From a virus: DNA of 22,668 nt. Positions within the stretch are counted from its first letter, which is position 1; each line of letters starts with the position of its first letter. The notes under the pieces are model-generated. The model had not been told where the DNA came from. It ran no database searches and saw nothing but the letters and a program-made list of their open reading frames with translations. The position numbers and the translations under genes are program-made. Shown piece by piece: positions 5,424-21,938 of this stretch. Location: the IMG/VR virus record IMGVR_UViG_3300042566_000732, positions 1 to 22,668 of that record; one strand, 5' to 3'.

Positions 5424-7361
5424 TTATAAAGACTGTGCGTCTACGATCTCGCAGGTGTTACCAACGCACGCCAGTTCGCGTGTGCCAGTCACTGTGTCGA
5501 TCCCCTTCTCATAGAAGGCGAGGCCAGCCCAATCAATCTCCTTTGGCATTGCATCGAGACGTTGCTCGTACTCAGCCTTGCTGATCGTCTCGTAAGGCAT
5601 CTGCGTGTAAGAGCTATCGCCCTCGAAGTGAGGCAGGAACGACAGGCCACAGATGTCATCGAAGTGATCGAAGACCCAGCCACCAACGGTCGGCCACTCA
5701 TTCTCTTTAACGCTGATGGTGCAGGACACAGCGTGCTCCGACCAATGCGTGTTGTAGGCGCGAACCAGCTCGAGGTGCTGCAATGCAGTCACGTCATCGC
5801 GAGTAGTAGTACCGTCGCCAAGCTTCACCGGAAAGGCGAAGACCGTCATGCCTTGAGGCTTCGAAGCATGCGGCTCGTTAGGAATGCCAGCATCACCCAT
5901 GAAGGCGGTGATTGGATCTTTGTTGTCACCAGTCACGCGCCGGATGTAGTACTGCGCATGCCCTTGGTGGATTCCGCTTGGGCTGTTCACCAACTGCGAC
6001 ACAGTGCCGGATGGCTTGACGGTAGTGACGGCGACAGATGGGTTGATCCCAATGTCGTGAGCCTCGAGACGGTTAGCCTTAATGGCGGTCGCCTTCAGCT
6101 TCTCCAGCGCCGTACCCAAACGATCAAGACCGTTGTCACCACGCATCAGTGGGTTGTCATAGATGCCGGTGAGGGACACGCCAAGCAAGCGCTCTTCCTC
6201 TGCATTGCGCCGCCACTCTGGCTCGATAAAGTTGAAGCGGGTGAGGGTGGACTGCCAAGTGCCAAGGATCGATGCGAGACGCACCTTCTCTTTAAGGTCA
6301 CCAAGGCTATCGTTCTCACGCACCACAGCTTCGGTCAAGTTGCAGAAGCCACGGGGACGCAGCACGATCTCTCCGCATGGGTTAGTGCCAAAGTCATAGC
6401 GGTGGTCACGACGACCAAGACGCAGGATCTTGTTGATGGCTCCCTCACGATTGAAGATGCCACGCTCACCGGATCTCGAGCGGTACAAAGCGGACCACTC
6501 ATCCATGAACTGACCAACCTCTGGCTTTTCTGTATAAGCAGCGGAGTTGTTGGCTAGCGCAAGGTATGGCTTGTCCATCCACCAGTTACCAGACTTGGCG
6601 TCACGCATGCGCTGGTCGGACAGATTCGAAAGGCTGATCTCAGCGGAGCGGCGGACACCACCAACCACCACGATCTCACCGATCTTGCAGACGATCTCGT
6701 GTACCTCGAGACTGTTCAGCTTACGGCCAGCAGCATTACGCATGGTGCGGATCGTGAATTCGAACAAGTCGCGCAAAGGATCTGGGCCAGACGCACGACC
6801 ACCGAAGACGCGAAGACGTTCACCTGCTGGACGGATCTGACTGTAGTCCACATTAGGAATAGTGCCAGCGTATAGACATGTCAGTAGCGTGTGGTACGCC
6901 TCTGCCCAACCAAGTTTGCTGTCACCCACAATGACGTCGAATGCAGTGCGGTCGAAGTGCTCAGGCACAACTGGCAGCTTGCTGATCTCTTGACGCTCGA
7001 CAGAGAAGCCAACGCCTGTACCGCACATGAGAACGTAGAGCGCCTCAGCGAACGCCTTGGGCCGATCTATAGGCAGGTAGCTACAGTTATAGCCAGCAAC
7101 GCTTTCGCGCTTCAGAGCCTCTCCTGCGGTCATCAGCGCACGCATGGATGGCATGACGGCGAGGCTTAGGACAGCGTCCTCGAGCTCACTACGCAGACTG
7201 GCAGACACCTTGTGTCCGTTGTGGGTCTCGAGCTCTTCCTCGAAGAAGTCGAAGTATCTCGAGACGGTTTCATCCCAATGTTCGCGGCGACCTTTCTCGT
7301 CGATGAAGCGTGCGTAACGGGACTTGTGAATATAGGATTGGTAGTCAGTCGGTAGTTGCAT
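5424..7361 (-). CDS. nrdJ: Class II (adenosylcobalamin-dependent) ribonucleotide reductase, monomeric RTPR type
   Basis: Makes deoxyribonucleotides for phage DNA using coenzyme B12 to generate the thiyl radical. Every key residue of the Lactobacillus RTPR type can be placed: C93 in AGYNCSYLP (first redox cysteine), N327-C329-E331 in NPCGEI (radical cysteine and its acid-base partners), C340 in GFCN exactly 11 residues later (second redox cysteine), PSGTVSQLVNSPSG (phosphate binding), and a C-terminal pair C632/C637 (CVGNTC) that re-reduces the active site. At 645 aa it is shorter than the 739-aa bacterial enzyme, as is usual for phage forms. The start is supported by GGAGA upstream. It stands apart from the plus-strand nucleotide genes, on the accessory strand. 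Confidence 0.95.
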   Translation of the reverse strand: MQLPTDYQSYIHKSRYARFIDEKGRREHWDETVSRYFDFFEEELETHNGHKVSASLRSELEDAVLSLAVMPSMRALMTAGEALKRESVAGYNCSYLPIDRPKAFAEALYVLMCGTGVGFSVERQEISKLPVVPEHFDRTAFDVIVGDSKLGWAEAYHTLLTCLYAGTIPNVDYSQIRPAGERLRVFGGRASGPDPLRDLFEFTIRTMRNAAGRKLNSLEVHEIVCKIGEIVVVGGVRRSAEISLSNLSDQRMRDAKSGNWWMDKPYLALANNSAAYTEKPEVGQFMDEWSALYRSRSGERGIFNREGAINKILRLGRRDHRYDFGTNPCGEIVLRPRGFCNLTEAVVRENDSLGDLKEKVRLASILGTWQSTLTRFNFIEPEWRRNAEEERLLGVSLTGIYDNPLMRGDNGLDRLGTALEKLKATAIKANRLEAHDIGINPSVAVTTVKPSGTVSQLVNSPSGIHQGHAQYYIRRVTGDNKDPITAFMGDAGIPNEPHASKPQGMTVFAFPVKLGDGTTTRDDVTALQHLELVRAYNTHWSEHAVSCTISVKENEWPTVGGWVFDHFDDICGLSFLPHFEGDSSYTQMPYETISKAEYEQRLDAMPKEIDWAGLAFYEKGIDTVTGTRELACVGNTCEIVDAQSL

Positions 7362-7641
7362 TGTAATTCTCCATTACATAGGTGGAACCTCCAGCCATAC
7401 GGCTAAAGCAGTGGTGCTTCAACTAATGTGTTTGCATCAGTCGAAAAAAATAGTTGTGTGTTTAGAGAGAGTTGCGGCTGTTCTTTTTATGTTCGCCGCT
7501 GATCAAAAATTGCTACGTTGCTAGACATTCACACCCTACTGTCTATGACCCCCATCACCCAAAGGTGTTTGATGCTTCCGCTGTCTAGCCGTCTATCCCG
7601 CCGTAGTTGTCGAGATTGAAAGGAGTTGGGGTGGGGTATTC
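7362..7641. other. Intergenic region upstream of nrdJ
   Basis: About 280 bases without a convincing gene. The nrdJ ribosome-binding site (GGAGA) is at its left end, with a small hairpin (AGCC-GTAT-GGCT on the minus strand) further upstream. A cluster of GTCTA pentamers occurs at 7541, 7583 and 7591, with one in inverted orientation at 7522. A weak CATCA...TGATG inverted repeat lies between two of them. This may be an operator or promoter region for nrdJ. No sigma-70 promoter is clear and no cobalamin riboswitch core was found. Confidence 0.4.
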
Positions 7642-7719
7642 TTAAAATCTAATTTCGTCTGGTGACCACTCGTAAATGTCCCAGCCAAAGTTGTCAAAGA
7701 GGAACTGGCGCAGGGTCAT
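7642..7719 (-). CDS. Possible 25-aa peptide gene
   Basis: A 25-codon frame with an ATG preceded by CGGGGA nine bases upstream. The product contains RQFLFDNFGWDIYEW and an acidic end. It lies 30 bases downstream of the preceding tiny gene in the same orientation, at the end of the ATGA-coupled series. No family is recognised. At this length chance is a real alternative. Confidence 0.4.
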   Translation of the reverse strand: MTLRQFLFDNFGWDIYEWSPDEIRF

Positions 7720-7749
7720 GTTAAAAAATCCCCGTTTCTTTAACAGGTT

Positions 7750-7818
7750 TCATTGGTCGCAATCCTTTTGGTCTTTGGACAGGCGGTCTATGATCCACTC
7801 GATGATGCGGCGGATCAT
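7750..7818 (-). CDS. Possible 22-aa amphipathic peptide gene
   Basis: Encodes MIRRIIEWIIDRLSKDQ plus five residues. Support comes from context: its ATG overlaps the upstream stop as ATGA and it is preceded by the same AGGAGCAAAGC element used at the three neighbouring junctions. The first half is an amphipathic basic helix. Function unknown. Confidence 0.45.
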   Translation of the reverse strand: MIRRIIEWIIDRLSKDQKDCDQ

Positions 7819-8024
7819 TGGCTTTGCTCCTGCAATTGTCGGACAATCTCAACCGCCCTTGCCGATGTGATGGTTTTGTAGTCAGCCCACGCCCCACAAC
7901 CGCACTCGCTTTCTTCCCGCGCAGCGCAATCGCATAGCTTGGCGTCAGCCTCTAGTGCCTTGGCCGCTTCTTCAACGCCGCTGTTAAATCCCTTCTGCCA
8001 TCTGGATAGGGGTTTATCGGTCAT
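7815..8024 (-). CDS. Small cysteine-rich phage protein, 69 aa
   Basis: Function unknown. The protein has an N-terminal helical part (WQKGFNSGVEEAAKALEADA) and a cysteine-rich centre (CDCAAREESECGCGAW, four cysteines) that could bind a metal. Similar short proteins with the same helix and CDC...CGCGAW pattern occur in accessory regions of alphaproteobacterial phages (from memory, unverified). Its ATG overlaps the preceding stop. Its last residues (QEQSQ) are encoded by the ribosome-binding element of the next small gene. Confidence 0.7.
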   Translation of the reverse strand: MTDKPLSRWQKGFNSGVEEAAKALEADAKLCDCAAREESECGCGAWADYKTITSARAVEIVRQLQEQSQ

Positions 8025-8500
8025 TTGCTTTGGTCCAGTGCTGCGCGATATTGCCCGTTAAGCCATGCGTCTTGACGCGCTTTGAAACTTTCCGCGCTTT
8101 CAGTAGCGCCTATTAGTGGCGCAGCTTCCAAAGCCTCACGCAGCGCATCGTGCCGCACAATCGGGTGTGTGCTGCCATCGTAATAGCCACGGTCGAACTG
8201 CGCCTTTGCTTCGGTTCGCAGCCGTTCGATTTCTGCCGCTTGGGCTTCGCTCTGTGTGGGCTGTGCAATCATCCTGCGTATATGCTCCACGAACACCCGC
8301 GCCGCTTCGGACGTATCCTCAATCTCGCCTGTCACCGTGCCGTCGGGGTGAATACTCAACAGGTGACGGCCCGTGTCTGGGTTTTGGATAAGGATAGTCG
8401 GTGGCGGCGGCGTGGATGCCCCAATGCTTAATTTCATATCAGCATGGGTTGTGATGTTGTTGGCGTCGATTTCGCCGTGGATGCAGTTATCGTCTGTCAT
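8021..8500 (-). CDS. Hypothetical phage protein, 159 aa
   Basis: Not assigned. The N-terminal part contains a proline stretch (STPPPPTI) followed by a strand-rich segment (NPDTGRHLLSIHPDGTVTGEI) that resembles the beta-hairpin unit of small phage accessory proteins. Then come a helix (AARVFVEHIRRMI) and an E/R/A-rich coiled-coil-like stretch. The C-terminus (ALDQSK) overlaps the shared junction element GGACCAAAGCAAATGA. The start is preceded by AGGAACAAAGCAA. Coupled to both neighbours by ATGA overlaps. No enzymatic motif seen. Confidence 0.7.
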   Translation of the reverse strand: MTDDNCIHGEIDANNITTHADMKLSIGASTPPPPTILIQNPDTGRHLLSIHPDGTVTGEIEDTSEAARVFVEHIRRMIAQPTQSEAQAAEIERLRTEAKAQFDRGYYDGSTHPIVRHDALREALEAAPLIGATESAESFKARQDAWLNGQYRAALDQSK

Positions 8501-8739
8501 TTGCTTTGTTCCTGTAGATACGCGCCGCGTTCAACCGCGTCCGCAAGGTTCCGGCCTATGTCATATTCGGGGTCGGTGTAATCCGTTGGCACGTCACCGC
8601 GCAGCCAAGCAGCGATAGCTTTGCGCTCGTTTGCAATGATGTTCGCATCGGTCTGTGTGTTCTGCTCAGCTCTGCCGTGCTTAACGCCTAACAAGTAGGC
8701 GATAAGCAGTGCGTCTTCGCTGTCTTTATCATTGGTCAT
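8497..8739 (-). CDS. Hypothetical phage protein, 80 aa
   Basis: An acidic, helical protein of unknown function with LLIAYLLGVKHGR near the N-terminus and IANERKAIAAWLRGD in the middle. The ATG overlaps the upstream stop (ATGA) and is preceded by AAAGGAGCAAAGCAA. Its end (LQEQSK) is made by the junction element that serves the next gene. It belongs to the run of ATGA-coupled accessory genes between ArdC and the reductase. No membrane segment or metal site is visible. Confidence 0.68.
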   Translation of the reverse strand: MTNDKDSEDALLIAYLLGVKHGRAEQNTQTDANIIANERKAIAAWLRGDVPTDYTDPEYDIGRNLADAVERGAYLQEQSK

Positions 8740-8870
8740 TTGCTTTGCTCCTTTGATCTCTCGTTACGCGACTTCTCGTAAGCCCGTAGCTGTTCTGAAT
8801 TCAGCTTGAGTAGATGCTCTTTGGGCATTGGAGGCACGTTCTTGGCGAGTAGTTTTAGGTAGTCGCTCAT
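8736..8870 (-). CDS. Small basic phage protein, 44 aa
   Basis: A 44-codon gene coupled at both ends: its ATG overlaps the stop of the upstream gene and its stop overlaps the start of the next one. The product (opening MSDYLKLLAKNVPPMP) is helical and basic at its C-terminus (YEKSRNERSKEQSK). The final EQSK is again encoded by the shared AGGAGCAAAGC junction element. Gapless packing and identical strand make it likely to be real. Function unknown. Confidence 0.6.
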   Translation of the reverse strand: MSDYLKLLAKNVPPMPKEHLLKLNSEQLRAYEKSRNERSKEQSK

Positions 8871-9256
8871 GCTGCACCTATGGCGACTGCGTAATCCCAC
8901 TCAGCATCGTCCGGTAAGGGGAAGCGGGTTATGTACTCTTCATCCTCGCGGGTCAGCTCTTCTATGGTTCCTTGTGGCTCTTCGTCGAAGGCAATCATCG
9001 CCTCCAGCAATTGGATCAGCAGATCGTCATGAACCTGTGGCCGTTCGAGGTAGGGCAGGTGAGCATTCGCGGATCTGATCTCGTTTGCGGCCTCGAGTGA
9101 TCTGATGGCGGTGATGACGTGGTCGTTCAGTGTCACATGCTTTCCTCTCAACGTGCCCTTCTGCGCCTCAGCAAAGGTCAGCCCCGTTGCACTGCGTAGG
9201 GGCCAGACACTGTCTGAAGAGATGCGCGTTTTGCGCTTGGGATCGATCTTAATCAT
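8867..9256 (-). CDS. Hypothetical phage protein, 129 aa
   Basis: Not recognised. The N-terminus is basic (MIKIDPKRKTRISSDSV). The rest is helical and increasingly acidic (FDEEPQGTIEELTREDEEYITRF). Its ATG overlaps the ArdC stop as TAATG, with GGAAG upstream, so it is translated with ArdC. A partner role in defence evasion is possible from position alone. No catalytic motif or membrane segment seen. Confidence 0.7.
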   Translation of the reverse strand: MIKIDPKRKTRISSDSVWPLRSATGLTFAEAQKGTLRGKHVTLNDHVITAIRSLEAANEIRSANAHLPYLERPQVHDDLLIQLLEAMIAFDEEPQGTIEELTREDEEYITRFPLPDDAEWDYAVAIGAA

Positions 9257-10125
9257 TAGGCTTCCTTTCCTGCTGCTTCAATAACGAAATCGACGGCCTT
9301 AGATGCAGCCGCCGCTGCTGATATAAATTCTTTCTTGTGGTCGGACAGCGCCCTCATCCATCCGTTGAGGTACTGGGCATGATCTGGGCGAGGGGTCGCG
9401 CTGATCTCGAGGTGAGCGCACAACAGTGCAGCGCCGATCTCAGCGACCAGCTCTTCACGCGCATAGGTCTCATCACCGAAGCGTGACTTCTCGAGACGAT
9501 CCAGACGTGACGTGTGTCCTGTCCAGTGCGTCAGCTCATGCGACAGGGTGCTGTAGTAGCACTCAGTTGCGCTGCTTGTCGGCGTGTCTTCGAACACGTC
9601 CTTAGCTGGCATGCTGATGAAGTCTTTCATGGGGTTGTAGTACGCACGACCAGTGGCCGTGTGATGCACGTCCGCAGGGATCTGGCGGAAAAAATCCTCA
9701 GCCACCGCGATCTCTTCTGCACCTGTACCAGTATCTGTACAGGTCAACAGACGGTCAGCGTAATCACCCTCGACCTGCGAGACGTTGAAGACGTGATACT
9801 GGCGAAGGAACGGGATGGTGACCTTATCGCCCTTCTCGTTTTCTTTCTCGAGAAACTGCCAGAAGACGATGGGGGTGGACTTCTCACCCTTAATGACTTT
9901 GCAGCCCTTCTCGTTCCACTGCTTGAAGGTTCCCCAAGCAGACGTTTCGTAAGGCGACCAGAGCAGCATGAGGTGGTTGATGCCACGATAGGTCTTGTTG
10001 CTGATGATGTTGTGCGGCTGAAGCGCCTTGCCCTTGCGAGCGAATGGGTTGATCCAGTTAGCGCCATGCGTCTCCATCATCTCGAGAACCTTGGCGGTGA
10101 CTGTTTCGTAAACGTCCTGTTTCAT
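9256..10125 (-). CDS. ardC: ArdC-family antirestriction protein
   Basis: Predicted to protect incoming phage DNA from host restriction. The N-terminal part (about 1-125, with NPFARKGKALQPHN, TYRGINHLMLLW, WGTFKQWNEKG and KGEKSTPIVFW) is the ArdC ssDNA-binding domain (DUF1738). The C-terminal part is a zinc metallopeptidase-like domain with HELTH at residues 196-200, followed by WTGHTSRLDR and YAREELVAEIGAALLC, which supplies the third ligand. The length (289 aa) matches plasmid ArdC. The start is supported by AAGGA upstream. It is the largest gene of the minus-strand accessory cluster apart from the reductase, and a TTGACGCAT sequence 50 bases upstream may be part of its own promoter. Confidence 0.93.
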   Translation of the reverse strand: MKQDVYETVTAKVLEMMETHGANWINPFARKGKALQPHNIISNKTYRGINHLMLLWSPYETSAWGTFKQWNEKGCKVIKGEKSTPIVFWQFLEKENEKGDKVTIPFLRQYHVFNVSQVEGDYADRLLTCTDTGTGAEEIAVAEDFFRQIPADVHHTATGRAYYNPMKDFISMPAKDVFEDTPTSSATECYYSTLSHELTHWTGHTSRLDRLEKSRFGDETYAREELVAEIGAALLCAHLEISATPRPDHAQYLNGWMRALSDHKKEFISAAAAASKAVDFVIEAAGKEA

Positions 10126-10188
10126 ATCGAATCCTTTCTATAAATGCTCCTAGTGACGCTGTTCTTATGCGTCAAGCATGTAAATACA

Positions 10189-10347
10189 TCAACGATTGGT
10201 GCGCACCATGTGTTCCACAGTGGCATCGAGTCCGGTTTCTAGTTTGTAATCGCTAACGGCTGTCCATCTCGCGAGTGCAGCACTGTTGGCTTTAACTTGG
10301 CGGACAGCGCTCTTGCCATCCGCCATGAGGATCACGCGCCACTGCAT
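10189..10347 (-). CDS. Small hypothetical phage protein, 52 aa
   Basis: A 52-codon gene whose ATG overlaps the upstream stop as TGATG. The product begins MQWRVILMADGKSAVRQVKA and continues to a basic end (MVRTNR). It looks like a small strand-helix domain with no cysteine. Overlap with its neighbour and the same orientation support it. Function unknown. Confidence 0.55.
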   Translation of the reverse strand: MQWRVILMADGKSAVRQVKANSAALARWTAVSDYKLETGLDATVEHMVRTNR

Positions 10348-10607
10348 CAGCACATGCACTCAGCGATGCGTGTTGCGAAGCGCAATTCCTCGATAGTCCG
10401 CCATGCGGGGTGCTGTCTGTCTCCGCTAGGCTCGAGCTCCGGCATGATGCCTTCAAGATCCGCCAAAGCGTTTTTCGCAGCGCTTAGTAGGCCAGCCAGC
10501 ATCTCATCAAAGTACCGCTCTTGGCTCTTAACCACAGCGAGCGCCACTTCTTCAATTCCGTAGACGCCGATCATTCCTTGCATTTCGTGTTGGAGATTAT
10601 CGTCCAT
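10347..10607 (-). CDS. Small helical phage protein, 86 aa
   Basis: Unknown function. An acidic helical protein with IEEVALAVVKSQERYFDEMLAG and AAKNALADLEGIMPELEPSG, and two cysteines at the very end (ECMC). The start is supported by GGGAG eight bases upstream of the ATG. It follows the 26-residue membrane peptide gene by about a dozen bases and overlaps the next gene by one base. No enzyme motif is visible. Confidence 0.7.
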   Translation of the reverse strand: MDDNLQHEMQGMIGVYGIEEVALAVVKSQERYFDEMLAGLLSAAKNALADLEGIMPELEPSGDRQHPAWRTIEELRFATRIAECMC

Positions 10608-10619
10608 GTATTTTCTCCC

Positions 10620-10700
10620 TTATGCGTAAAGGTTGGCGGCGATCACGATGATCGCGAAGATGCCGCAGCGGATTGCTAGGTGTAGTTGTCCTTCAGTCAT
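10620..10700 (-). CDS. Possible 26-aa single-span membrane peptide
   Basis: Begins MTEGQLHLAIRCG and continues into a hydrophobic segment (IFAIIVIAANLYA), so it is essentially one membrane helix. The ATG lies inside the end of the upstream gene (AATGACTGA), 8 bases of overlap, and the stop is followed directly by the ribosome-binding site of the next gene. It fills what would otherwise be an 85-base gap in a tightly packed operon. No homologue is recalled. Confidence 0.5.
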   Translation of the reverse strand: MTEGQLHLAIRCGIFAIIVIAANLYA

Positions 10701-10989
10701 TGGTTTTCCCTTTCGCTTTGTTGATTACTTCCTCGATCACATAGATGAGAAACGGATGCAGATTGCCGTTTTGATCTAAGGCCTCGCTGCGCCGATTGGC
10801 TCTCAGTACGTGGTCGAGTGCCTGAAGCATTTCGGGAGCAGCGGCCATCAAATAGGCGTTAGCCAGCTTGTTCCGACTTTTGTCCTTCACCACTGCTAAG
10901 GCGTGGTGGTGCTGGTCGATCACCTGCAGGATCGTTCCGGTTTTTGTAGGTCTTACCTCCAAAAGCCAAGGTGCGGTTGAGATATCCAT
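10693..10989 (-). CDS. Hypothetical phage protein, 98 aa
   Basis: Carries the motif NAYLMAAAPEMLQAL, which recurs (as ANARLIAAAPDLL...) in a large set of small phage and prophage proteins of unknown role. The N-terminal half is beta-rich (PWLLEVRPTKTGTILQV) and the C-terminal half helical. The start is supported by AAGGAG upstream. It is the first gene after the downstream hammerhead-like element, so its message would begin with a ribozyme-generated 5' end. Confidence 0.75.
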   Translation of the reverse strand: MDISTAPWLLEVRPTKTGTILQVIDQHHHALAVVKDKSRNKLANAYLMAAAPEMLQALDHVLRANRRSEALDQNGNLHPFLIYVIEEVINKAKGKTND

Positions 10990-11004
10990 TCTTCTTCTCC
11001 TTTG

Positions 11005-11060
11005 CCTGTCTCATCAGTGACGGGAGGCAACCCCGCCAGACGCCCGAAGGCGTTTCGACT
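11005..11060 (-). ncRNA. Type II hammerhead ribozyme, copy 1
   Basis: On the minus strand all invariant hammerhead parts occur in type II order: GTC-GAAA (11059-11053), stem III ACGCC/GGCGT capped by TTCG, cleavage-site C at 11039, stem I TGGCGGG/CCCGTCA (11038-11018, one G-U pair, 7-base loop), then CTGATGA (11017-11011) and GAC closing a short stem II. The A-U pair beside the cleavage site and the G-C closing stem II are canonical. Predicted cleavage is between 11039 and 11038. The G-U pairs form only on the minus strand. It begins two bases after the stop codon of the upstream gene and ends just before the next gene's ribosome-binding site. Stem II has only 3 bp, the weakest feature. Confidence 0.85.
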
Positions 11061-11061
11061 A

Positions 11062-11244
11062 CTAGCCAATGATCCCTTGATCGATCAGCGACTGAGCGGT
11101 GCGGCCAAACCAACCTTGGAGGCGGTAGGCAAGGCCAGTGTCATGCAGGTACTGCCAAGCTTCGACGGTGCGGTGGTAGTCCGCATCTTCGACGCCCTCA
11201 GCGATCATGACGGCGGTGTAGTCATCCAGTTTCTCTTCGGTCAT
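11062..11244 (-). CDS. Small conserved phage protein, 60 aa (DUF7417-like)
   Basis: Matches the pattern of a widespread small phage family: an acidic N-terminus, then EAWQYLHDTGLAYRLQGWFGRTAQSLIDQGII, where the LQGxFGRTAxxLIxxG core is the recurring part. Function unknown. The start is supported by TAGGAG upstream. It is the last gene of the four-gene segment bracketed by the two hammerhead-like elements. Its TAG stop is two bases from the first ribozyme strand, so terminating ribosomes would cover the ribozyme. Confidence 0.78.
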   Translation of the reverse strand: MTEEKLDDYTAVMIAEGVEDADYHRTVEAWQYLHDTGLAYRLQGWFGRTAQSLIDQGIIG

Positions 11245-11265
11245 TCACTTTCTCCTACTGATTGA

Positions 11266-11454
11266 TTAATACTGATCTGCGCTCTGCGCCCACATAGCCT
11301 GATGCTTCGCATCAATCCAACCCAACTGCCAACGGTTGTATCGGCAATCGTCGCCCTCTTCACGATAGTTGTAGGGGCATTCTGTGTCCTTAACGCCGCG
11401 ACCAAAATCTCTATAGCCTTGGTGATATTCGACGTTGTCTCTTCTGATAGTCAT
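11266..11454 (-). CDS. Ribosome modulation factor (Rmf/CrpP fold)-like protein
   Basis: A 62-residue basic/acidic protein with the Rmf signature: HQGYRDFGRG (G13-Y14), ECPYNY (C26-P27-Y28) and RWQLGWIDA (W42, G45-W46). In Escherichia coli, Rmf promotes dimerisation of 70S ribosomes into inactive 100S particles. The fold is also found in CrpP-type proteins. A phage copy might hibernate or remodel host ribosomes, or act elsewhere as a small fold (inference). It has about 12 more residues between CPY and GW than E. coli Rmf, with an extra cysteine (C37). The start is supported by AAGGAG. It is preceded by a UUCG-capped hairpin and lies in the segment between the two hammerhead-like elements. Confidence 0.78.
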   Translation of the reverse strand: MTIRRDNVEYHQGYRDFGRGVKDTECPYNYREEGDDCRYNRWQLGWIDAKHQAMWAQSADQY

Positions 11455-11483
11455 TTACTTTCTCCTTGCTGAATTCATCCTCG

Positions 11484-11505
11484 CTGCGGCTCCGAAGAAC
11501 CGCAG
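11484..11505 (-). promoter_or_regulatory. UUCG-capped mRNA hairpin upstream of the Rmf-like gene
   Basis: On the minus strand CTGCGGTTC pairs with GAGCCGCAG (9 bp, one U-G pair) around a C(UUCG)G tetraloop. It lies between the stop of the 109-aa gene and the ribosome-binding site of the Rmf-like gene. It has no hammerhead core and no U-tract. Confidence 0.7.
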
Positions 11506-11515
11506 TCTGGGGAAG

Positions 11516-11845
11516 TCAGTCGGGGTACAGATCCCAGCAGATGCTGAGGCATGCATCGTTGTCACTGTGATCCGCGATCAGCTCACTGCCGTCCTCAGCG
11601 TTGCCGTAGACCAGCCAGAGCGATCCAACCCGTTCGCCGTCCTTGTAAAGGCGGACGATGTCCTCGCCAGTGGTTGCGAGGGCGGACAGGATCTCGTTGC
11701 GGTCAGTGCTCAGGGTAACGGTCCACTCTTCGCCGTCATTGATGCTGACCATGTACCCGCGCTCGAGGATGATGCGGACTAGACGTTTTACTACTGCGGC
11801 CTCGCCTCTGGTGGCGAAGCGGTCAAGATCGATTACTTGTGACAT
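11516..11845 (-). CDS. Hypothetical phage protein, 109 aa
   Basis: Unknown function. Looks like a small alpha/beta domain: an N-terminal helix (AAVVKRLVRIILERGY), strands (MVSINDGEEWTVTLS), a helix (NEILSALATTG), then DIVRLYKDGERVGSLWLVYGNAEDGSELIAD and an acidic end. The pattern of strand, DGEE and final Asp/Glu-rich tail is common in phage accessory proteins. GGGAGAG precedes the ATG. It lies within the segment between the hammerhead-like elements. Confidence 0.7.
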   Translation of the reverse strand: MSQVIDLDRFATRGEAAVVKRLVRIILERGYMVSINDGEEWTVTLSTDRNEILSALATTGEDIVRLYKDGERVGSLWLVYGNAEDGSELIADHSDNDACLSICWDLYPD

Positions 11846-11857
11846 TGGTACTCTCCC

Positions 11858-12031
11858 TTAGAAAATTGGTTCGATCCGCTCACATGCGGGGAAGTCGCTT
11901 TCGTACTTAGCGAACAGCGGAACATCTGCGTTCTTGCAGCCATAGCCAATGTAGCGGGGCTGGACGATGATTAGGCTGGCAACGACCAGAACGGCCAAGC
12001 CAGCAACAAATGATTTAAATGCTTCAACCAT
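11858..12031 (-). CDS. Small membrane-anchored protein, 57 aa
   Basis: A 57-codon gene with one N-terminal transmembrane segment (about residues 6-24, SFVAGLAVLVVASLIIV), followed by a short soluble part with two cysteines (C32 and C50), which could form a disulfide if exported. The ATG is preceded by GGAG. It is the first gene downstream of hammerhead copy 2, so its message would start at the ribozyme cut. Function unknown. The layout resembles small periplasmic or membrane phage proteins. Confidence 0.62.
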   Translation of the reverse strand: MVEAFKSFVAGLAVLVVASLIIVQPRYIGYGCKNADVPLFAKYESDFPACERIEPIF

Positions 12032-12050
12032 GTACTTTCTCCATTCGTGA

Positions 12051-12108
12051 CCTGTCTCATCAGTGGTGGGCGGTCAGTCCCAACCAGACCCCCGAAGGGG
12101 TTTCGACT
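12051..12108 (-). ncRNA. Type II hammerhead ribozyme, copy 2
   Basis: Same fold as copy 1, with changes that keep pairing. GTC-GAAA lies at 12107-12101, stem III is ACCCC/GGGGT with a TTCG loop (copy 1 has ACGCC/GGCGT), the cleavage-site C is 12087, stem I is TGGTTGGG/CCCACCA with one bulged U, then CTGATGA (12063-12057) and GAC. Predicted cleavage is between 12087 and 12086. The first ribozyme base follows directly on the TAA stop of the upstream gene (12110-12108). Loops differ from copy 1 while the core is identical, the pattern expected of a selected ribozyme. Stem II is again only 3 bp. Confidence 0.85.
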
Positions 12109-12494
12109 TAGTGGTGGCGCTCGATCACCAGATCATGCTCCCAGCTCTTCAGAATCCGTTTACGCCATGCGTCTGGCTTTTCGTCCGACACGTTAACGGT
12201 GAGGCCAATGTGCTGGCGGATATCCTCGAGCGTGTAGGGATCATCAACGAACCCGCCTCTGTCGCTCTTCTTGACCCGCACACAACCCCGAAGGCGTTCG
12301 AACAGCGCGATCCGCTTGTAGAACTCTTTGTAGTTGCTTTCGGTGATCCGGCCCAAGCCCACGACCATCGTGAGGAAGATCAAGTTTTCGGTGGACTGCG
12401 TCAGTCGGCGCTTGGCCTCGCCGTCCTCTTTGTAGTTGAAGAAACAGACTGCTTCGCTGTTCGCGATGTTCGATACGTTCCAATTCAGTGACAT
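12108..12494 (-). CDS. Hypothetical phage protein, 128 aa
   Basis: Unknown function. The start at 12494 is chosen because AAGGGAA precedes it. Upstream codons in the same frame lie antisense to nothing useful and overlap the previous gene out of frame. The protein has a strand-rich N-terminus (NSEAVCFFNYKEDGEAKRRL), then helices (NLIFLTMVVGLGRI, YKEFYKRIALFERLRG) and a basic C-terminal region. It resembles small phage proteins whose hydrophobic TENLIFLTMVVGLGRIT segment is conserved, but no name can be given. Its TAA stop touches hammerhead copy 2. Confidence 0.72.
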   Translation of the reverse strand: MSLNWNVSNIANSEAVCFFNYKEDGEAKRRLTQSTENLIFLTMVVGLGRITESNYKEFYKRIALFERLRGCVRVKKSDRGGFVDDPYTLEDIRQHIGLTVNVSDEKPDAWRKRILKSWEHDLVIERHH

Positions 12495-12532
12495 AAATAT
12501 TCCCTTCGTATTTGGCACTAGCGCCATCCTCG

Positions 12533-12554
12533 CGGCGGAGTAGGAACCCCGCCG
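12533..12554 (-). promoter_or_regulatory. GC-rich intergenic hairpin
   Basis: On the minus strand CGGCGGGG pairs with CTCCGCCG (8 bp, one G-U) around a six-base loop, between the 84-aa and 128-aa genes. It lacks the UNCG loop of its neighbours and has no U-tract. Probably an mRNA stability or processing element. Confidence 0.5.
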
Positions 12555-12564
12555 TCTGGTGGTG

Positions 12565-12819
12565 TTAGAAACGGATGTCGATCTCTGTAGGCATCGCCTC
12601 CTGCTTGGCGGCAGCGATGTCATGCTTAGCTGCAAGGTTGAAGCCTCTGTACAGGTCTCGCAGGTGACGAAGGTTTTGAACGAGTGTTTGAGCTCGCTCA
12701 TATTGGTTTGCCTCAACGCTGGAAGCGATCCAGTTCTTGTGCGCCGCTATGTCCGACTCAATCAACTTGAAGATGGTGTCGGCTTGTTCGCGGTCCATAG
12801 TGAAAGTGTACTTATCCAT
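12565..12819 (-). CDS. Hypothetical helical phage protein, 84 aa
   Basis: First gene of the minus-strand operon. Start at 12819 is supported by AAGGAG eight bases upstream. A GTG at 12843 in the same frame would put the ribosome-binding site inside the gene. The protein is strongly helical (FTMDREQADTIFKLIESDIAAHK, then ERAQTLVQNLRHLRDLYRGF), probably a helical hairpin or coiled coil. Its leader is about 150 nt long from the predicted promoter and contains a UCCG-capped hairpin. Function unknown. Confidence 0.7.
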   Translation of the reverse strand: MDKYTFTMDREQADTIFKLIESDIAAHKNWIASSVEANQYERAQTLVQNLRHLRDLYRGFNLAAKHDIAAAKQEAMPTEIDIRF

Positions 12820-12877
12820 GTTAGTTCTCCTTGCTAAAATCACCAGACGGCAGCGGACTGCGGTGTGATGATCCTAG

Positions 12878-12895
12878 CGGGGACCGGAGCCCCCG
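12878..12895 (-). promoter_or_regulatory. UCCG-capped hairpin in the leader of the minus-strand operon
   Basis: On the minus strand CGGGGGC pairs with GTCCCCG (7 bp, one G-U) around a C(UCCG)G tetraloop, a UNCG family member. It lies in the 5' leader upstream of the first operon gene. Confidence 0.55.
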
Positions 12896-12971
12896 TAGGT
12901 ATCAAGCGTTTAACGATGTCAAAGAACGGAGACGGTGGGAGCCTCGCGGCGGCGTTGTCTCGATGTCCTAG

Positions 12972-13001
12972 TTAATAGTCGAAGGTAATTTGATGCGTCA
13001 A
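12972..13001 (-). promoter_or_regulatory. Sigma-70-like promoter of the minus-strand operon
   Basis: On the minus strand a TTGACG box (13001-12996) and a TATTAA box (12977-12972) are separated by 18 bases. This is the best promoter match upstream of the long minus-strand gene series. The TTGACGCAT around the -35 recurs upstream of ardC (near 10171). Confidence 0.6.
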
Positions 13002-13057
13002 CCCACATTCGTACATAAAAATGCATTTACTCGATGCATGGTGAATAAGGTATTGAA

Positions 13058-13076
13058 AAAGTTTCGAGAAAACTTT
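13058..13076. promoter_or_regulatory. Operator-like inverted repeat
   Basis: AAAGTTT and AAACTTT separated by the 5 bases CGAGA form a perfect 7-bp dyad. It lies about 55 bases before the plus-strand coiled-coil gene and upstream of the minus-strand promoter. The size and symmetry fit a dimeric helix-turn-helix repressor site, but no repressor gene is in the window. Confidence 0.4.
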
Positions 13077-13131
13077 GTTTGCACTCGCGTACAACGTCAC
13101 TCGATGATATGGAGATGGCAGTGATTAACCA

Positions 13132-13395
13132 GTGAGACCTGTTGTGGATTTGCCAGCCATTGACCACCGCCTTGGGCGGATCGAAGAAGAAATGAAATCC
13201 ATAGCGGATGCGCTGCGGCTGCTGTCGCGGGTGGATGAACGGTTACACGGTCACAGGGAGGCCATCGACGATCACGAAGGGCGGCTGCGATCACTGGAAA
13301 AGTCAGCGACTAACCAATCTGGTGCAATCAAGATGGCTGAGCGCTTCATCTGGTTAGCGGTGACAGTGGGCCTCGCCTTCGTCAACTTCGCCTAG
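13132..13395 (+). CDS. Coiled-coil protein with C-terminal membrane anchor, 87 aa
   Basis: A charged coiled coil (HRLGRIEEEMKSIADALRLLS, HREAIDDHEGRLRSLEKSA) followed by one transmembrane segment at about 70-86 (FIWLAVTVGLAFVNFA). The organisation resembles XhlA-type phage membrane proteins. The start is uncertain: GTG 13132 or GTG 13144, neither with a strong ribosome-binding site, although GGAG lies 18 bases upstream. It stands alone, not in the lysis cassette, which has its own holin and spanins. It might anchor a complex at the membrane or belong to superinfection control, both of which are inference. Confidence 0.65.
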   Translation: MRPVVDLPAIDHRLGRIEEEMKSIADALRLLSRVDERLHGHREAIDDHEGRLRSLEKSATNQSGAIKMAERFIWLAVTVGLAFVNFA

Positions 13396-13543
13396 AGTTT
13401 CCACGTCATCGCTGCGGCGGTGGCCCCCGCTGGTTTCGGCCAGTGGGACTTATTCAGAGGTTAGCGCCCGTGCTGGTCTGAGCGGGGAACATCGAATGGG
13501 TTGGGAGGTTTCTGCAGAGGCCGTTAGAACCAGCATCAGACCG

Positions 13544-17863: not shown

Positions 17864-18328
17864 GTGCAGAAGAGCTGCACCCACTGCGGCCAATTGAAGC
17901 CCAAATCAGAGTACCGCCTGAATCCTATGACTGGGCGGTACTCTTTCCGTTGCATGTCGTGTCCGCCTACAAGGCTGGCATCGAAGTACAGATGCGTCGA
18001 GTCTTATCTCAGGGCTCGCTTTCATGACGCAAAAAGGAAATCCAAAGGCGGGAGCTTTTCAACCGATTGCTTTACGTTTGTTCACCTGCTCGAGCTCCTC
18101 CAGAAACAGAATGGACGCTGCGCGGTTACCGGCAAAGCATTCACCTTCGAAGGCGATGATGTCGGAACCAACATCAGCATTGACCGGATCGACTCGAACA
18201 GACCGTACTCCGCAGGCAATGTAAGACTGGTCTGTGTCGCAGTTAATTATATGAAGCGCCGCATGAGCGATGACGAGCTCATCGACTGGTGCTTGGACAT
18301 TGTTAAGGGTATGGGTTTGTGGAAATAG
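17864..18328 (+). CDS. HNH-like endonuclease with N-terminal zinc finger
   Basis: An N-terminal zinc ribbon is visible: C5xxC8 and C30xxC33. The C-terminal half (about 84-145) has an HNH-like pattern with NGRCAVTGKAF, SIDRIDSNRPYSAGNVRLVC and N128, but the usual first histidine is replaced by aspartate (ISIDRID), as in several phage HNH families. It starts at GTG 17864 with a weak ribosome-binding site. It lies directly before the large terminase, and its end overlaps that gene by 10 bases. HNH proteins beside terminase can be needed for packaging or be homing-type intruders. The sequence does not decide which. Confidence 0.78.
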   Translation: MQKSCTHCGQLKPKSEYRLNPMTGRYSFRCMSCPPTRLASKYRCVESYLRARFHDAKRKSKGGSFSTDCFTFVHLLELLQKQNGRCAVTGKAFTFEGDDVGTNISIDRIDSNRPYSAGNVRLVCVAVNYMKRRMSDDELIDWCLDIVKGMGLWK

Positions 18329-19905
18329 AGCAGGTAGCAAAGAAGCTGATGGGGGACTTCCCCATGTATGCGAAGAACGTGCTACGCATTGTCGACAAGC
18401 GCGGTGAGGAGAAGCGCTTCAAGCTCAACTACGGCCAGATGATCCTCCATGAGAAGCTCGAGAAGCAGCTCGCCGACACCGGTCGTATCCGCGCTCTCGT
18501 GATTAAAGGGCGGCAGATGGGGATCTCCACCTACGTCGAGGGTCGGTTCTTCTGGAAGACGACCAAGACCAAGAACGCCAACGCCTTCGTGCTCTCCCAT
18601 CTTGCAGAGTCGACCACCGCCATCTTCCGAATGGTGCGCTATTTCTACGACAACGCAGCTCACCCGATCTTTAAGCCGCCGCTGGCGACCAGCACAACCA
18701 CCACGATGGTCTTCGAGAAGCTGAACTCCCAATACCGAATTGGTACGGCGCGATCCACGAACATCGGTCGAGGCATGACCAACCGCTACGTGCATGCATC
18801 TGAGGCCGCTTTTTATCCAAATAGTGGCGAGATTGTGGCAGGCCTGCTGCAGTCTGTCCCCGCCGAAGACTCTGAAGTGATCGTTGAGTCCACAGCGAAC
18901 GGTGCCGGTGGCTGGTTCTACGACCAAGTGATGAAGGCGCTAAGAGGAGACGGCGATTGGATCGTGATCTTTATCCCTTGGTTCTGGCTCCCAGAGTACG
19001 AGAAGAAGTGCGATCCGTACTTCACCCGCACAACGGAAGAGGACAAGCTAGCGGCTCTTTACAACCTGTCGAACGAGAAGCTGAACTGGCGTCGGTCGAA
19101 GATCGACGAGCTCGGGTCTCTGGATCTATTCAAGCAGGAGTACCCATGTACGCCAGAAGAAGCGTTCCTGTTTTCTGGCCGCAGCTTCGTTGAAGAAGAC
19201 TGCCTCATGGATGCAGAGCGTAACTGCTACAGCCCAGAAATCGAGGGAAGCTTTAAGGACGGCAACATCACGCCGCACGAGAAGGGGTCGTACAAGCAGT
19301 GGATCAAGCGCATTGATCCGGACGAGCGCTATTGCATCGGCGTCGACGTCGCTGAAGGCTTGGCGCATGGCGACTACACAGTGGCTCAGGTGCTCGATTC
19401 GCTTGGACGACAGGTGGCGACATGGCATTTGCACATCGATCCATACGAGCTTGGTGACCAGCTCTGTGCGTTGGGCAAGATGTTCAACCGTGCCTACATC
19501 ATTCCAGAGCGAAACAACCACGGTCTGACTACGATCCGCCGCATGCAGGATCTGGGTTACCCCAACCTCTATGTAGAACACACAGTCGACGATGCGTATG
19601 CAGACAGAATGACTAAGCGTGCAGGTTTCTACACGTCCAGTAAGACAAAGCCATTGATCATCGATAATCTCGCTGCTTTGTTGCGTAAGCGCGATAGTGG
19701 AATATCCGACACAGAACTTGTAAAAGAGTTGCGTAACTACGTTATTGATGACAAAGGCATTACGAATGCGAAGGCGGGTTGCTTTGATGACAGAGTGATG
19801 GCATACGCAATAGCTCTATTCGGACTTAACTCAATGCCACGTAACCGTAGGACGAAAACCGTAGCAACTAAGTACGAGCCGTTCGATAGTGTCGTGGGGT
19901 ATTGA
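18319..19905 (+). CDS. terL: Terminase large subunit
   Basis: Packaging ATPase and headful/cos nuclease. ATPase: the Walker A variant KGRQMGIST at 63-71 and a Walker B-like HASEAAF at 159-165 with E162. Nuclease (RNase H fold): D343 in CIGVDVAEG, E397 in IIPERNNHG, and D490/D491 in GCFDDRVMAYA. The QEYPCTPEEAFLFSGRSF segment linking the domains is typical of one large group of phage terminases. The length (528 aa) is complete. It starts at GTG 18319 inside the HNH gene end, with AAGGG upstream. The stop overlaps the portal ATG (TGATG). Confidence 0.95.
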   Translation: MEIEQVAKKLMGDFPMYAKNVLRIVDKRGEEKRFKLNYGQMILHEKLEKQLADTGRIRALVIKGRQMGISTYVEGRFFWKTTKTKNANAFVLSHLAESTTAIFRMVRYFYDNAAHPIFKPPLATSTTTTMVFEKLNSQYRIGTARSTNIGRGMTNRYVHASEAAFYPNSGEIVAGLLQSVPAEDSEVIVESTANGAGGWFYDQVMKALRGDGDWIVIFIPWFWLPEYEKKCDPYFTRTTEEDKLAALYNLSNEKLNWRRSKIDELGSLDLFKQEYPCTPEEAFLFSGRSFVEEDCLMDAERNCYSPEIEGSFKDGNITPHEKGSYKQWIKRIDPDERYCIGVDVAEGLAHGDYTVAQVLDSLGRQVATWHLHIDPYELGDQLCALGKMFNRAYIIPERNNHGLTTIRRMQDLGYPNLYVEHTVDDAYADRMTKRAGFYTSSKTKPLIIDNLAALLRKRDSGISDTELVKELRNYVIDDKGITNAKAGCFDDRVMAYAIALFGLNSMPRNRRTKTVATKYEPFDSVVGY

Positions 19906-21938
19906 TGTACGAAGACGAAATAGAAGACGAAGAAAATGGAGAATTCGCACCAGTAGAAAAACGTGAGGAAGATCTTGAAGAATTTCAAGGTCTTGGTCCG
20001 CGTCTGCAGTCTTTGTTCACTGAGTACAAGGACGCCCGTAACGACATCGAGGATGAGTGGCTCTCGAGTTTCCGCCAATTTTTGGGGGAATATGACCCCG
20101 AAGTCCTCGCAAAGCTAACCGGCACACGCTCAAAAGTATTCGTCGGCCTCACCCGCACTAAGGTGATGTCGGCGTTTTCGCGTCTGGTCGACCTTCTGTT
20201 CCAGAGTGGACAGGACTTCTACAGCATCGATCCCACGTCGATACCTGAGCTCGACCCGCTCGAGATGGCGGAGATCACCAAAGAAGCCACTGCTGAGATC
20301 ATGCAGGCCTCTGGTGCAGCTTCGCCGACGATGGTTCTCGACATCATCAATGAGCGTCGTGACGAGCTGATGGATCAGGTGCGTGACGAGGTTAGACGCC
20401 GCGCCAAGATGGCTGCGTCTGAAATGACCATCCTTGTCCGCGATCAGCTAGGCGAAGCTAACGCTGAGCAGAAGATCAAGGAAGCCATCATGGAGTCTTG
20501 CATCTTCGGCACTGGCTGCATCAAGGGCGGCACAGTTCGAATCGAACGCAGCAAGCGCTGGAAGCGCAGCTACCAGAACGGCGTGCAGGCTCACTCGCTT
20601 ACGGTCGTTGAGCAGGTCAAGCCAGACATCGAGTCGGTATCGATTTTCGACATATATCCAGACCCTTACGCGACGTCGAACGAAGATCTTCATGGTTTGT
20701 TCCGCCGCCATGTTCTTACCCGTCGCCAGTTCCGCGACCTGCGTGACCTTGACGGCTTCGACAGCGACGCGATTGAAGAGATCCTTTCCGACAGTCCTCG
20801 CGGCAACCACGTTGAAGAAGACCACGAGCGTATCCGCCGTGAGGTCGCCAACATCAAGCTGCAGTCTGGTCCCAATAACAGGTTCGAAGTGCTCGAGTAC
20901 TGGGGATCGATCAACGGCACCGACCTTCTCGAGGCAGGCGCTGAGCTCCCAGAAGGCTCCGAAGAGGATGACGACTACGACGGCAACGTCTGGATCTGCG
21001 CTGGCAAGGTTATCCGCGCCACGCTGAACCCGATTCCGGATGGCCGCATTCCTTACAACTGCTTCCCATACGAGCGTAACCCGCACCAGTTCTGGGGTAC
21101 AGGCGTGCCTCGCATGATGCGCGACTCGCAGTCGACCATGAACGCGGCGACCCGCATCTTCATCGACAACATGGCGATCTCCTCTGGCCCAATGGTCGAA
21201 GTCAATATGGACTTCCTCGAGGCCGGTGAAGATCCAACCGATCTACATCCTTGGAAAGTCTTCCTGCGTAGTGGCGGCGATCCTAATGCCCCAGCCGTCC
21301 GCTTTAACCAGCCGGTGGCAAACGCAAACGGACTGACCAGCATCATCGAGATGTTCCGCAAGTTCGCGGATGAGACCACCTCTCTGCCGTCATACACGCA
21401 CGGTGACGCAGGCCAGCAGCTCAACAAGACCGCGACCGGTATGTCCATCCTGATGGGTAACGCCAACGTGGCACTGAAGTCGACGCTTAAGAACGTCGAT
21501 GACTATCTGATCATTCCGCTGATCAAGTCTCTCTACCACTGGAATATGGAGTGGAGCGACAACGAGAAGGCTAAGGGCGATCTAAATGTGACAGCTCGTG
21601 GCAGTACCTCGCTCATTCAGCGTGAGGTTCGCTCACAGCGTTTGCTGCAGTTTATGTCTTTGATCAGCAATCCTATGGACGTTGCTATAACAAAACGTAA
21701 AGAGTTGCTTACTGAGATTGCAAAGAGTATGGACATTAATCCAGACGAAGTAATCAAGACGGATAAGGAACTTCAACTTGAAGCGCAAGCACAACAGCAG
21801 CAGATGCTCGCCGCAAGCGGCGCAGGCGGTGCTCCAACTGACGGCTCAGCCCCAGTGGAAGGACTTGATGATCTTTCTAACGGAGCGGCTGGAGGCTTGC
21901 AGGGACAAGTTGGAGACCGTTCCGGACCACAGATTTGA
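19905..21938 (+). CDS. Portal protein
   Basis: Forms the dodecameric ring at the DNA entry vertex. Support: position directly after terL, length (677 aa) and family-type motifs: FLGEYDPEVLAKL, SKVFVGLTRTKVMSAFSRLVDLLF (about 53-76), ESCIFGTGCIKGG, SVSIFDIYPDPYATS, RNPHQFWGTGVPRMMRDSQSTMN, and a C-terminal STSLIQREVRSQRLLQFM helix. The N-terminus is strongly acidic (MYEDEIEDEENGEF), and the C-terminus is Gln/Gly-rich and probably flexible. The ATG at 19905 is preferred over the TTG three bases before it because it overlaps the terL stop. A small gene is nested out of frame in its last 71 bases. Confidence 0.92.
   Translation: MYEDEIEDEENGEFAPVEKREEDLEEFQGLGPRLQSLFTEYKDARNDIEDEWLSSFRQFLGEYDPEVLAKLTGTRSKVFVGLTRTKVMSAFSRLVDLLFQSGQDFYSIDPTSIPELDPLEMAEITKEATAEIMQASGAASPTMVLDIINERRDELMDQVRDEVRRRAKMAASEMTILVRDQLGEANAEQKIKEAIMESCIFGTGCIKGGTVRIERSKRWKRSYQNGVQAHSLTVVEQVKPDIESVSIFDIYPDPYATSNEDLHGLFRRHVLTRRQFRDLRDLDGFDSDAIEEILSDSPRGNHVEEDHERIRREVANIKLQSGPNNRFEVLEYWGSINGTDLLEAGAELPEGSEEDDDYDGNVWICAGKVIRATLNPIPDGRIPYNCFPYERNPHQFWGTGVPRMMRDSQSTMNAATRIFIDNMAISSGPMVEVNMDFLEAGEDPTDLHPWKVFLRSGGDPNAPAVRFNQPVANANGLTSIIEMFRKFADETTSLPSYTHGDAGQQLNKTATGMSILMGNANVALKSTLKNVDDYLIIPLIKSLYHWNMEWSDNEKAKGDLNVTARGSTSLIQREVRSQRLLQFMSLISNPMDVAITKRKELLTEIAKSMDINPDEVIKTDKELQLEAQAQQQQMLAASGAGGAPTDGSAPVEGLDDLSNGAAGGLQGQVGDRSGPQI

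Follow-up and report, generated by a model that had tools for sequence, protein, structure and literature searches.

Why would a phage place two self-cleaving ribozymes between the small genes of a single operon? The question is raised by a stretch of 22,668 nt of an uncultured phage (IMG/VR record IMGVR_UViG_3300042566_000732), analysed at its full length and here called the window, in which two minus-strand elements had been predicted to be type II hammerhead ribozymes. The hammerheads themselves are of a published kind; the rule that describes their placement and exchange, and a second RNA element termed motif B, go beyond those parts of the literature covered. We consider it probable that the hammerheads serve as the self-cleaving 3' ends of exchangeable gene cassettes in a shared transcript and that motif B has an equivalent role.

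Identity and placement of the hammerheads

The two elements are as follows.

11008..11059, minus strand: type II hammerhead copy 1, cut at 11039/11038, from direct reading and Rfam
12054..12107, minus strand: type II hammerhead copy 2, cut at 12087/12086, core as in copy 1, stem I bulged

The analysis supports the assignment of both elements to the type II hammerhead ribozymes, and self-cleavage is predicted. Direct reading bore out the complete type II core claimed for both copies and agrees with both predicted cuts. Each copy has the order GAAA, stem III, cut site, stem I and CUGAUGA, with stem II open, and the catalytic core (CUGANGA, GAA, A15.1-U16.1 and a cleavage-site H, i.e. not G) is present in both. 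Copy 1 reads GUC-GAA-A-CGCC-UUCG-GGCG-U-C, followed by stem I and CUGAUGA-GAC; its stem II is GUC/GAC, its stem III A-CGCC-UUCG-GGCG-U, and its stem I comprises 7 bp including one G-U pair, with an eighth pair, also G-U, being possible. The claim that stem I varies between the copies with pairing kept stands as far as pairing goes, but copy 2 does not form a clean helix: TGGUUGGG/CCCACCA contains an extra U, best read as a 1-nt bulge.

The check proposed for both copies, a comparison with the Rfam type II covariance model (RF02276), succeeded for copy 1 (44.1 bits against a gathering cut-off of 37; E 3.4e-6 over the window, cmscan) but not for copy 2, which scores 33.5 bits (E 5.4e-4 in a 6-kb scan and 5.0e-7 in a per-genome search). 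Copy 2 is nevertheless classed as a hammerhead because of its core, stems and pseudoknot. This pseudoknot between loop I and the 3' tail, which the original prediction did not mention, is possible in copy 1 with 6 bp (UUGCCU/AGGCAA, the 3' strand AGGCAA at 11007-11002) and in copy 2 with 5 bp (UGACC/GGUCA, the 3' strand GGUCA at 12052-12048). The sections available of Perreault et al. 2011 (PMC3088659) describe such pairing, of at least 4 bp, as possible in the majority of type II motifs. With the family-typical pseudoknot possible in each copy, the 3-bp stem II, once named as the main doubt, is reduced to a weak one. Stand-alone minimum-energy folding gave values no better than shuffles for the two hammerheads (z -0.59 and 0.51); such folding is blind to pseudoknots, and support was taken from covariation. 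Altogether, the identity of the two copies is carried by Rfam (copy 1), the full core, the covarying stems, the pseudoknot and the many relatives.

These relatives were gathered in several ways. With a strict core pattern, at least 120 matching stretches were obtained from viral contigs. The searches demanded the core letters, hence core invariance is not independent evidence; the stem interiors were left free by the pattern, and at least two further pairs were found in the interior of stem III in 124, and of stem I in 122, of the 130 unique matches listed, window included (shuffles 21% and 18%, respectively). A structural parser identified 162 elements (161 without overlaps) in 26 records, half of them from the window's clade and half Streptomyces phages (13 each); three shuffles and the reversed sequences yielded none. 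These counts rest on a wider parser, as narrower ones overlooked copies whose core is a CUGANGA variant or whose stem II is spaced. By this parser the 26 records carry 0 to 13 copies, with 8-13 in each of the 13 Streptomyces phages and none in one record of the window's clade (L145), and all hammerheads of a record lie on one strand in each of the 25 hammerhead-bearing records. Rfam counts nine type II hammerheads in R4, eight in Tefunt and nine in Spernnie; the early region of R4 has matches in 152 records. The view that two in one operon are unusual had to be given up, as records with three to 13 copies are frequent among those examined, a set selected for having hammerheads. When the 5.5-kb operon was compared by blastn with 50,697 phage records, 10 of them matched, one (Roseobacter phage CRP-804) on the ArdC gene and the other nine, all Streptomyces phages, on one or other of the two hammerheads; the Streptomyces phage hammerheads share 84-89% identity over 54-63 nt with the window copies.

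Several Streptomyces phages possess back-to-back hammerhead pairs about 70 nt apart, which would release a tiny RNA:

L131, 7700 and 7632, minus strand: back-to-back hammerhead pair in a Streptomyces phage
L193 1500/1570, L194 1485/1554 and L196 1245/1314, in reverse-complement coordinates: back-to-back hammerhead pairs

Most hammerheads lie between the stop codon of the gene upstream, where they begin, and the ribosome-binding site of the next gene. Among 315 unique hammerheads from 136 records, the start falls in the interval -25..+6 nt around a stop codon that closes at least 40 open codons in 276 (random positions 22%), and a Shine-Dalgarno sequence with a start codon follows within 60 nt in 273 (random positions 23%). 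Loop I-tail pairing of 4 or more bp is present in 226 of the 315, compared to 39% after permutation. In the window, UAA directly precedes copy 2, and the UAG before copy 1 ends two nt upstream of the element. The same arrangement was surveyed on the early regions of 10 of the 13 Streptomyces phages (R4, Tefunt and Spernnie were left out of this, of the gene-order test and of the comparisons of which neighbouring gene was kept), taking genes from the deposited annotation there and from our own gene calls in the window's clade. There, 82 of 96 gaps of at least 55 nt are occupied by a hammerhead, in a region with an intergenic fraction of 12%. When we called open reading frames (ORFs) ourselves on the Streptomyces regions, which are high in GC, 40 of 129 hammerheads fell inside one, and an upstream stop lay near only 68 and a start near only 56 of the 129; these calls were judged unreliable and replaced by the deposited annotation.

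Gene-order breaks and motif B

Gene order is broken about twice as often at hammerhead junctions as at other nearby junctions. As hammerheads sit in the variable region, a region-matched comparison was preferred, restricted to this region in 13 records of the window's clade and 10 Streptomyces phages; an earlier control with all genes of the window's clade had 266 of 2058 broken from the upstream side. In the window's clade, breaks occur in 165 of 238 comparisons at hammerhead junctions and 171 of 254 at motif B junctions, compared to 337 of 942 at other junctions; in the Streptomyces phages the counts are 366/594 at hammerhead junctions and 548/1710 elsewhere. When labels were permuted (hammerhead and motif B pooled in the window's clade), none of 5000 permutations reached the observed difference in either set. 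The association of elements with breaks, like their junction position, is read from the sequences compared.

Where the upstream gene was kept and the downstream one was not, the partner carried a hammerhead there in 72 of 85 cases in the window's clade and 168 of 179 in Streptomyces phages; where the downstream gene was kept, the figures are 47/80 and 118/187. With wider windows, the hammerhead of the window's clade was kept with the upstream gene in 80/93 and with the downstream gene in 56/98 (p 1.2e-5). Comparison of the window with four relatives showed homology blocks that begin or end at hammerheads, and other block ends that lie away from hammerheads. Copy 2 alone corresponds to a hammerhead-gene-hammerhead arrangement in L127 (1240-2002), and at the place of the single L127 counterpart of copy 1, three hammerheads (10280-11122) are present in L126.

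Motif B is a repeated 52-nt element that came to light through standing where hammerheads stand, one copy lying between the two hammerheads of the window:

11468..11519, minus strand: motif B copy containing the UGA of the 109-aa (amino acid) gene at its positions 2-4; 63.4 bits with our own covariance model R1
12517..12568, minus strand: motif B copy of the CUAAC... form, containing the UAA of the 92-aa gene at its positions 2-4; 61.2 bits with R1

Its consensus, CUGAC-NNNN-CC-RGA-hairpin-CGAGGA-...-UCAG, describes about 50 nt with two helices round a conserved CC-RGA / CG(A or C)GGA internal loop and the stop codon in the outer helix, and it folds somewhat better than shuffles (z -2.83 and -2.15). 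In an alignment of 31 of 32 copies (one with the core variant CGCGGA was left out), 88.6% of cells are paired, compared to 66.3% in shuffles (0/500 as high), letter constancy and part of this percentage being built in because the finder demanded CC.GA, CG.GGA and a 5-bp hairpin, and rows with 5/9 outer pairs were kept. The two-sided changes are not built in: 14 of 19 pairs changed on both sides, compared to 10.6 in shuffles (2/500). In addition, the covariation score of 0.543 exceeds the 0.139 of shuffles (0/500) and the 0.06-0.11 of slid versions.

A pattern built from motif B, with CTRAC fixed, matched 57 stretches of viral contigs. In the sequences searched, R1 parts members (41-66 bits) from the rest (<28). 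Of the 53 new viral loci (L133-L185), 52 were rescored separately, all but L160, and 47 of these reach at least 41 bits; L137, L149, L157, L161 and L170 do not. Among cellular genomes, 44 pattern matches on GTDB contigs were rescored and taken as chance, because the best has 27.8 bits against 41-66 in phages. A blastn search of three copies against named phages gave no match, blastn being blunt for short structured RNA, and a fourth copy gave two matches of 22-27 nt in Mycobacterium phages (E 0.04), likewise taken as chance. Rfam 15 returned nothing on motif B at gathering in the window, at E<=5 in 7500-13500 or at E<=2 in 10 further loci; a RAGATH-1-hammerhead match in 7500-13500 (22.8 bits against 56.3, E 2.2) overlaps the edge of a motif B copy by 8 nt.

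The position of motif B resembles that of the hammerheads. It starts at the stop of an open frame in 62 of 63 copies, and a Shine-Dalgarno sequence with a start codon follows in 61 (random 26% and 19%). In a control for the fixed CTRAC, UGA or UAA stands in a frame open for 40 codons in 55/60 CTGA/CTAA copies, compared to 255/870 other CTRAC sites on the same strands. Moreover, within the window's clade the element ahead of two downstream gene families (present in 11 and 10 records) varies, being motif B in some phages and a hammerhead in others. Families with both element types number 0 of 14 upstream (seen in at least two records) and 2 of 16 downstream, from which we conclude that in this clade the element type accompanies the gene before it and that the types are exchangeable before the next gene. 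Behind one upstream family and its element, as many as five different downstream families occur.

We put forward motif B, from these sequence features, as a candidate ribozyme or processing signal. That it represents a new class of small self-cleaving ribozyme, used interchangeably with hammerheads as a self-made cassette 3' end, is a possibility that we raise tentatively and regard as doubtful.

Outside the window's clade, only one of 21 motif-B records tested also has a hammerhead, so that wide co-occurrence was not borne out. One record, L140 (G049, 24,893 bases), has nine motif B model matches and no type II hammerhead by Rfam; to judge from these matches, its operon is punctuated by motif B alone. 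Another motif-B-bearing record contains a DUF3800-VII RNA (RF02967, 59.7 bits) at L141 4029-4115 on the minus strand.

Proposed cassette ends and the alternatives

Both hammerheads lie in the sense orientation of the minus-strand operon, and each reaches from the preceding stop codon to just before the next ribosome-binding site. We propose the following. If the genes are co-transcribed and the ribozymes cleave in cells, as we infer, cleavage after C17 would leave the upstream mRNA with the stable stem III hairpin, capped by UUCG, and a 2',3'-cyclic phosphate at its 3' end; the downstream mRNA would begin with a 5'-hydroxyl in the stem I hairpin and its pseudoknot. Both mRNA ends may thereby be protected; 5'-hydroxyl ends are poor entry points for decay that senses a 5'-monophosphate. 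Transcription would not be stopped, and the ribozyme may be likened to a terminator without termination. One promoter could serve a whole series of interchangeable genes, each bringing an RNA 3' end along, and a further gene could be slotted in wherever it came with a ribosome-binding site and a 3' element. Related phages do differ by gene gain, loss and swap at the element junctions. Cleavage may also be timed by upstream translation, because a terminating ribosome would cover the first nucleotides of the ribozyme at the stop codon. Motif B probably does an equivalent job, because it sits at the same point of the junction and can take the place of a hammerhead ahead of the same gene.

Several observations weigh against this proposal. 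Fourteen of the 96 Streptomyces early-region gaps have no hammerhead, and 15 of 103 Streptomyces hammerheads overlap an annotated coding sequence by at least 20 nt, six of them wholly inside (L193 1499, 1569 and 7148; L194 1553 and 7193; L197 3291, in reverse-complement coordinates); these are either misannotations or genes read through the ribozyme. Element-free junctions break too, with 206/414 broken in the window's clade at gaps of 15 or more nt (76/264 in Streptomyces phages), and gap size may explain part of the break excess in the window's clade. Genome pairs are not independent, which makes the within-genome permutations a better guide than the pair counts. With wider windows the Streptomyces hammerheads were kept in 208/232 cases with the upstream and 177/212 with the downstream gene, a mere trend (p 0.068). 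The idea of a half-swap, in which the gene before a ribozyme would carry along its 5' half and the gene after it the 3' half, is weakly supported and not claimed (window's clade p 0.15; Streptomyces p 0.002, with a small effect and non-independent pairs). Finally, the support comes from genome sequences.

Part of this evidence could also be read at the level of DNA. Boundary sequences have been proposed for mosaic phages, and the elements might likewise matter mainly as border homology for recombination, with RNA cleavage incidental. Gene order does break at the elements, and the two window copies have 23-25 nt direct repeats in common. However, the stem interiors vary with pairing kept, a feature that recombination would not require; for Streptomyces copies whose flanks are unrelated, mean identity per half is only 0.63-0.65, a poor homology; and the single strand occupied in each of the 25 records is that of the flanking stop and start. 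We regard this explanation as unlikely.

More improbable still is that the hammerheads are regulated decay switches, lowering downstream expression by signal-dependent cleavage in the manner of glmS. The pseudoknot strand of copy 1 does adjoin the ribosome-binding site, but no extra domain was noticed beside the minimal ribozyme, with no search aimed at one, and an upstream family with its element precedes up to five different downstream families. There is also a slight chance that the elements are neutral passengers of mobile cassettes, with no present function in these phages. They travel with cassettes, and some phage hammerheads have core changes and low activity, according to the sections available of PMC3088659; against this stand the pairing kept in variable stems and the tight placement, among 315 unique sequences, with respect to the stop and start codons. 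Excision by the two same-strand hammerheads, 1048 nt apart, of a 1048-nt RNA (12086-11039) to be circularised or spliced as in retrozymes is the least credible, considering the copy number of 0 to 13 per record (26 records), the four ORFs and motif B between the cuts, and the report of Perreault et al., in the sections available of PMC3088659, that spliced or circular products could not be detected.

The proposed self-cleaving cassette end offers a testable answer to the question of why phages have hammerheads. The role of prokaryotic and phage hammerheads is called an open question in the part available of a review (PMC6155905); the rule of junction, cassette and replacement makes it directly testable in cultured, non-pathogenic phage systems, of which Streptomyces phage R4 alone has nine copies.

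The operon and known systems

That the window belongs to a phage, as originally stated, is backed by two structural-side genes. The description of the operon as early is inferred from its ArdC and class II ribonucleotide reductase genes, which lie on the strand of the hammerheads and opposite the structural genes. From 12843 to 10693 the minus strand reads 92-aa gene, motif B, 128-aa gene, hammerhead copy 2, 57-aa and 109-aa genes, motif B, 62-aa gene, 60-aa gene, hammerhead copy 1 and 98-aa gene, and all four RNA elements touch, contain or almost touch the stop codon of the preceding gene.

12565..12843, minus strand: 92-aa ORF, 5' of the motif B copy at 12568-12517; no Pfam or PHROGs match
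12108..12494, minus strand: 128-aa ORF, MSLNWN... (length by chosen start), its stop abutting hammerhead copy 2
11858..12031, minus strand: 57-aa ORF, 3' of hammerhead copy 2; orthologues come after either element type
11516..11845, minus strand: 109-aa ORF, phrog_22565 (unknown function)
11266..11454, minus strand: 62-aa ORF, sub-threshold match to ribosome modulation factor (RMF), 18.4 bits against a cut-off of 27.9
11062..11244, minus strand: 60-aa ORF, DUF7417, with a stop codon that ends 2 nt upstream of hammerhead copy 1
10693..10989, minus strand: 98-aa ORF, phrog_1273, 3' of copy 1; start codon 18 nt past stem II
18319-19905, plus strand: terminase, structural side
19902-21938, plus strand: portal, structural side

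The 128-aa ORF, queried as 12108-12491, has no Pfam or PHROGs match; some relatives have motif B before its orthologue and others a hammerhead. The ArdC-type antirestriction protein (9256-10125, minus strand; Pfam ArdcN and MPTase-PolyVal) is encoded by the sole gene of the searched operon for which blastn gave a named phage, Roseobacter phage CRP-804. The class II (B12-dependent) ribonucleotide reductase (5424-7361, minus strand) has weak Pfam matches. In scans of 10500-13200, predicted promoters and terminators were no more numerous than in shuffled sequence.

A search of open-licence PMC texts, subscription journals not being covered, gave no prior report of Streptomyces-phage hammerheads or of cassette swapping at hammerheads, and no ribozyme is annotated in the Streptomyces phage feature tables over the stretches examined. 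In integrons, a gene and its 3' element form the unit of exchange. The analogy goes no further: in the present case the 3' element is an RNA structure, and no search for an integrase or attC-like site was made.

That hammerheads are known in some phages, as had been noted, agrees with the phage type II hammerheads and clusters published in PMC3088659, whose available sections also contain their clustering in prophages, the idea of mRNA processing, and the cleavage in vitro of three tandem arrangements, one of which cleaved in E. coli as well. Stop-codon placement, the filling of early gaps, a gene-order test and a second element were not seen in those sections. Self-cleaving ribozymes are enriched near other self-cleaving ribozymes, according to the part available of PMC10085705.

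Compared to RF02276 (clan CL00010), the window copies have the same core (CUGAUGA/GAAA/A-U/C17), an open 3-bp stem II, closed stems I and III and the pseudoknot; copy 1 lies over the cut-off, whereas copy 2 differs in its score (33.5 against 37 bits) and the bulge in stem I. A close likeness also exists to Streptomyces phage R4 and other Arquatrovirinae, which have 8-13 hammerheads per phage and, by blastn, no DNA match with the window operon besides the hammerheads. Stem II is GGC/GCC or GCC/GGC in 14 of the 17 copies of R4 and Tefunt. Their hammerheads are similar to those of the window and stand at the same kind of junction.
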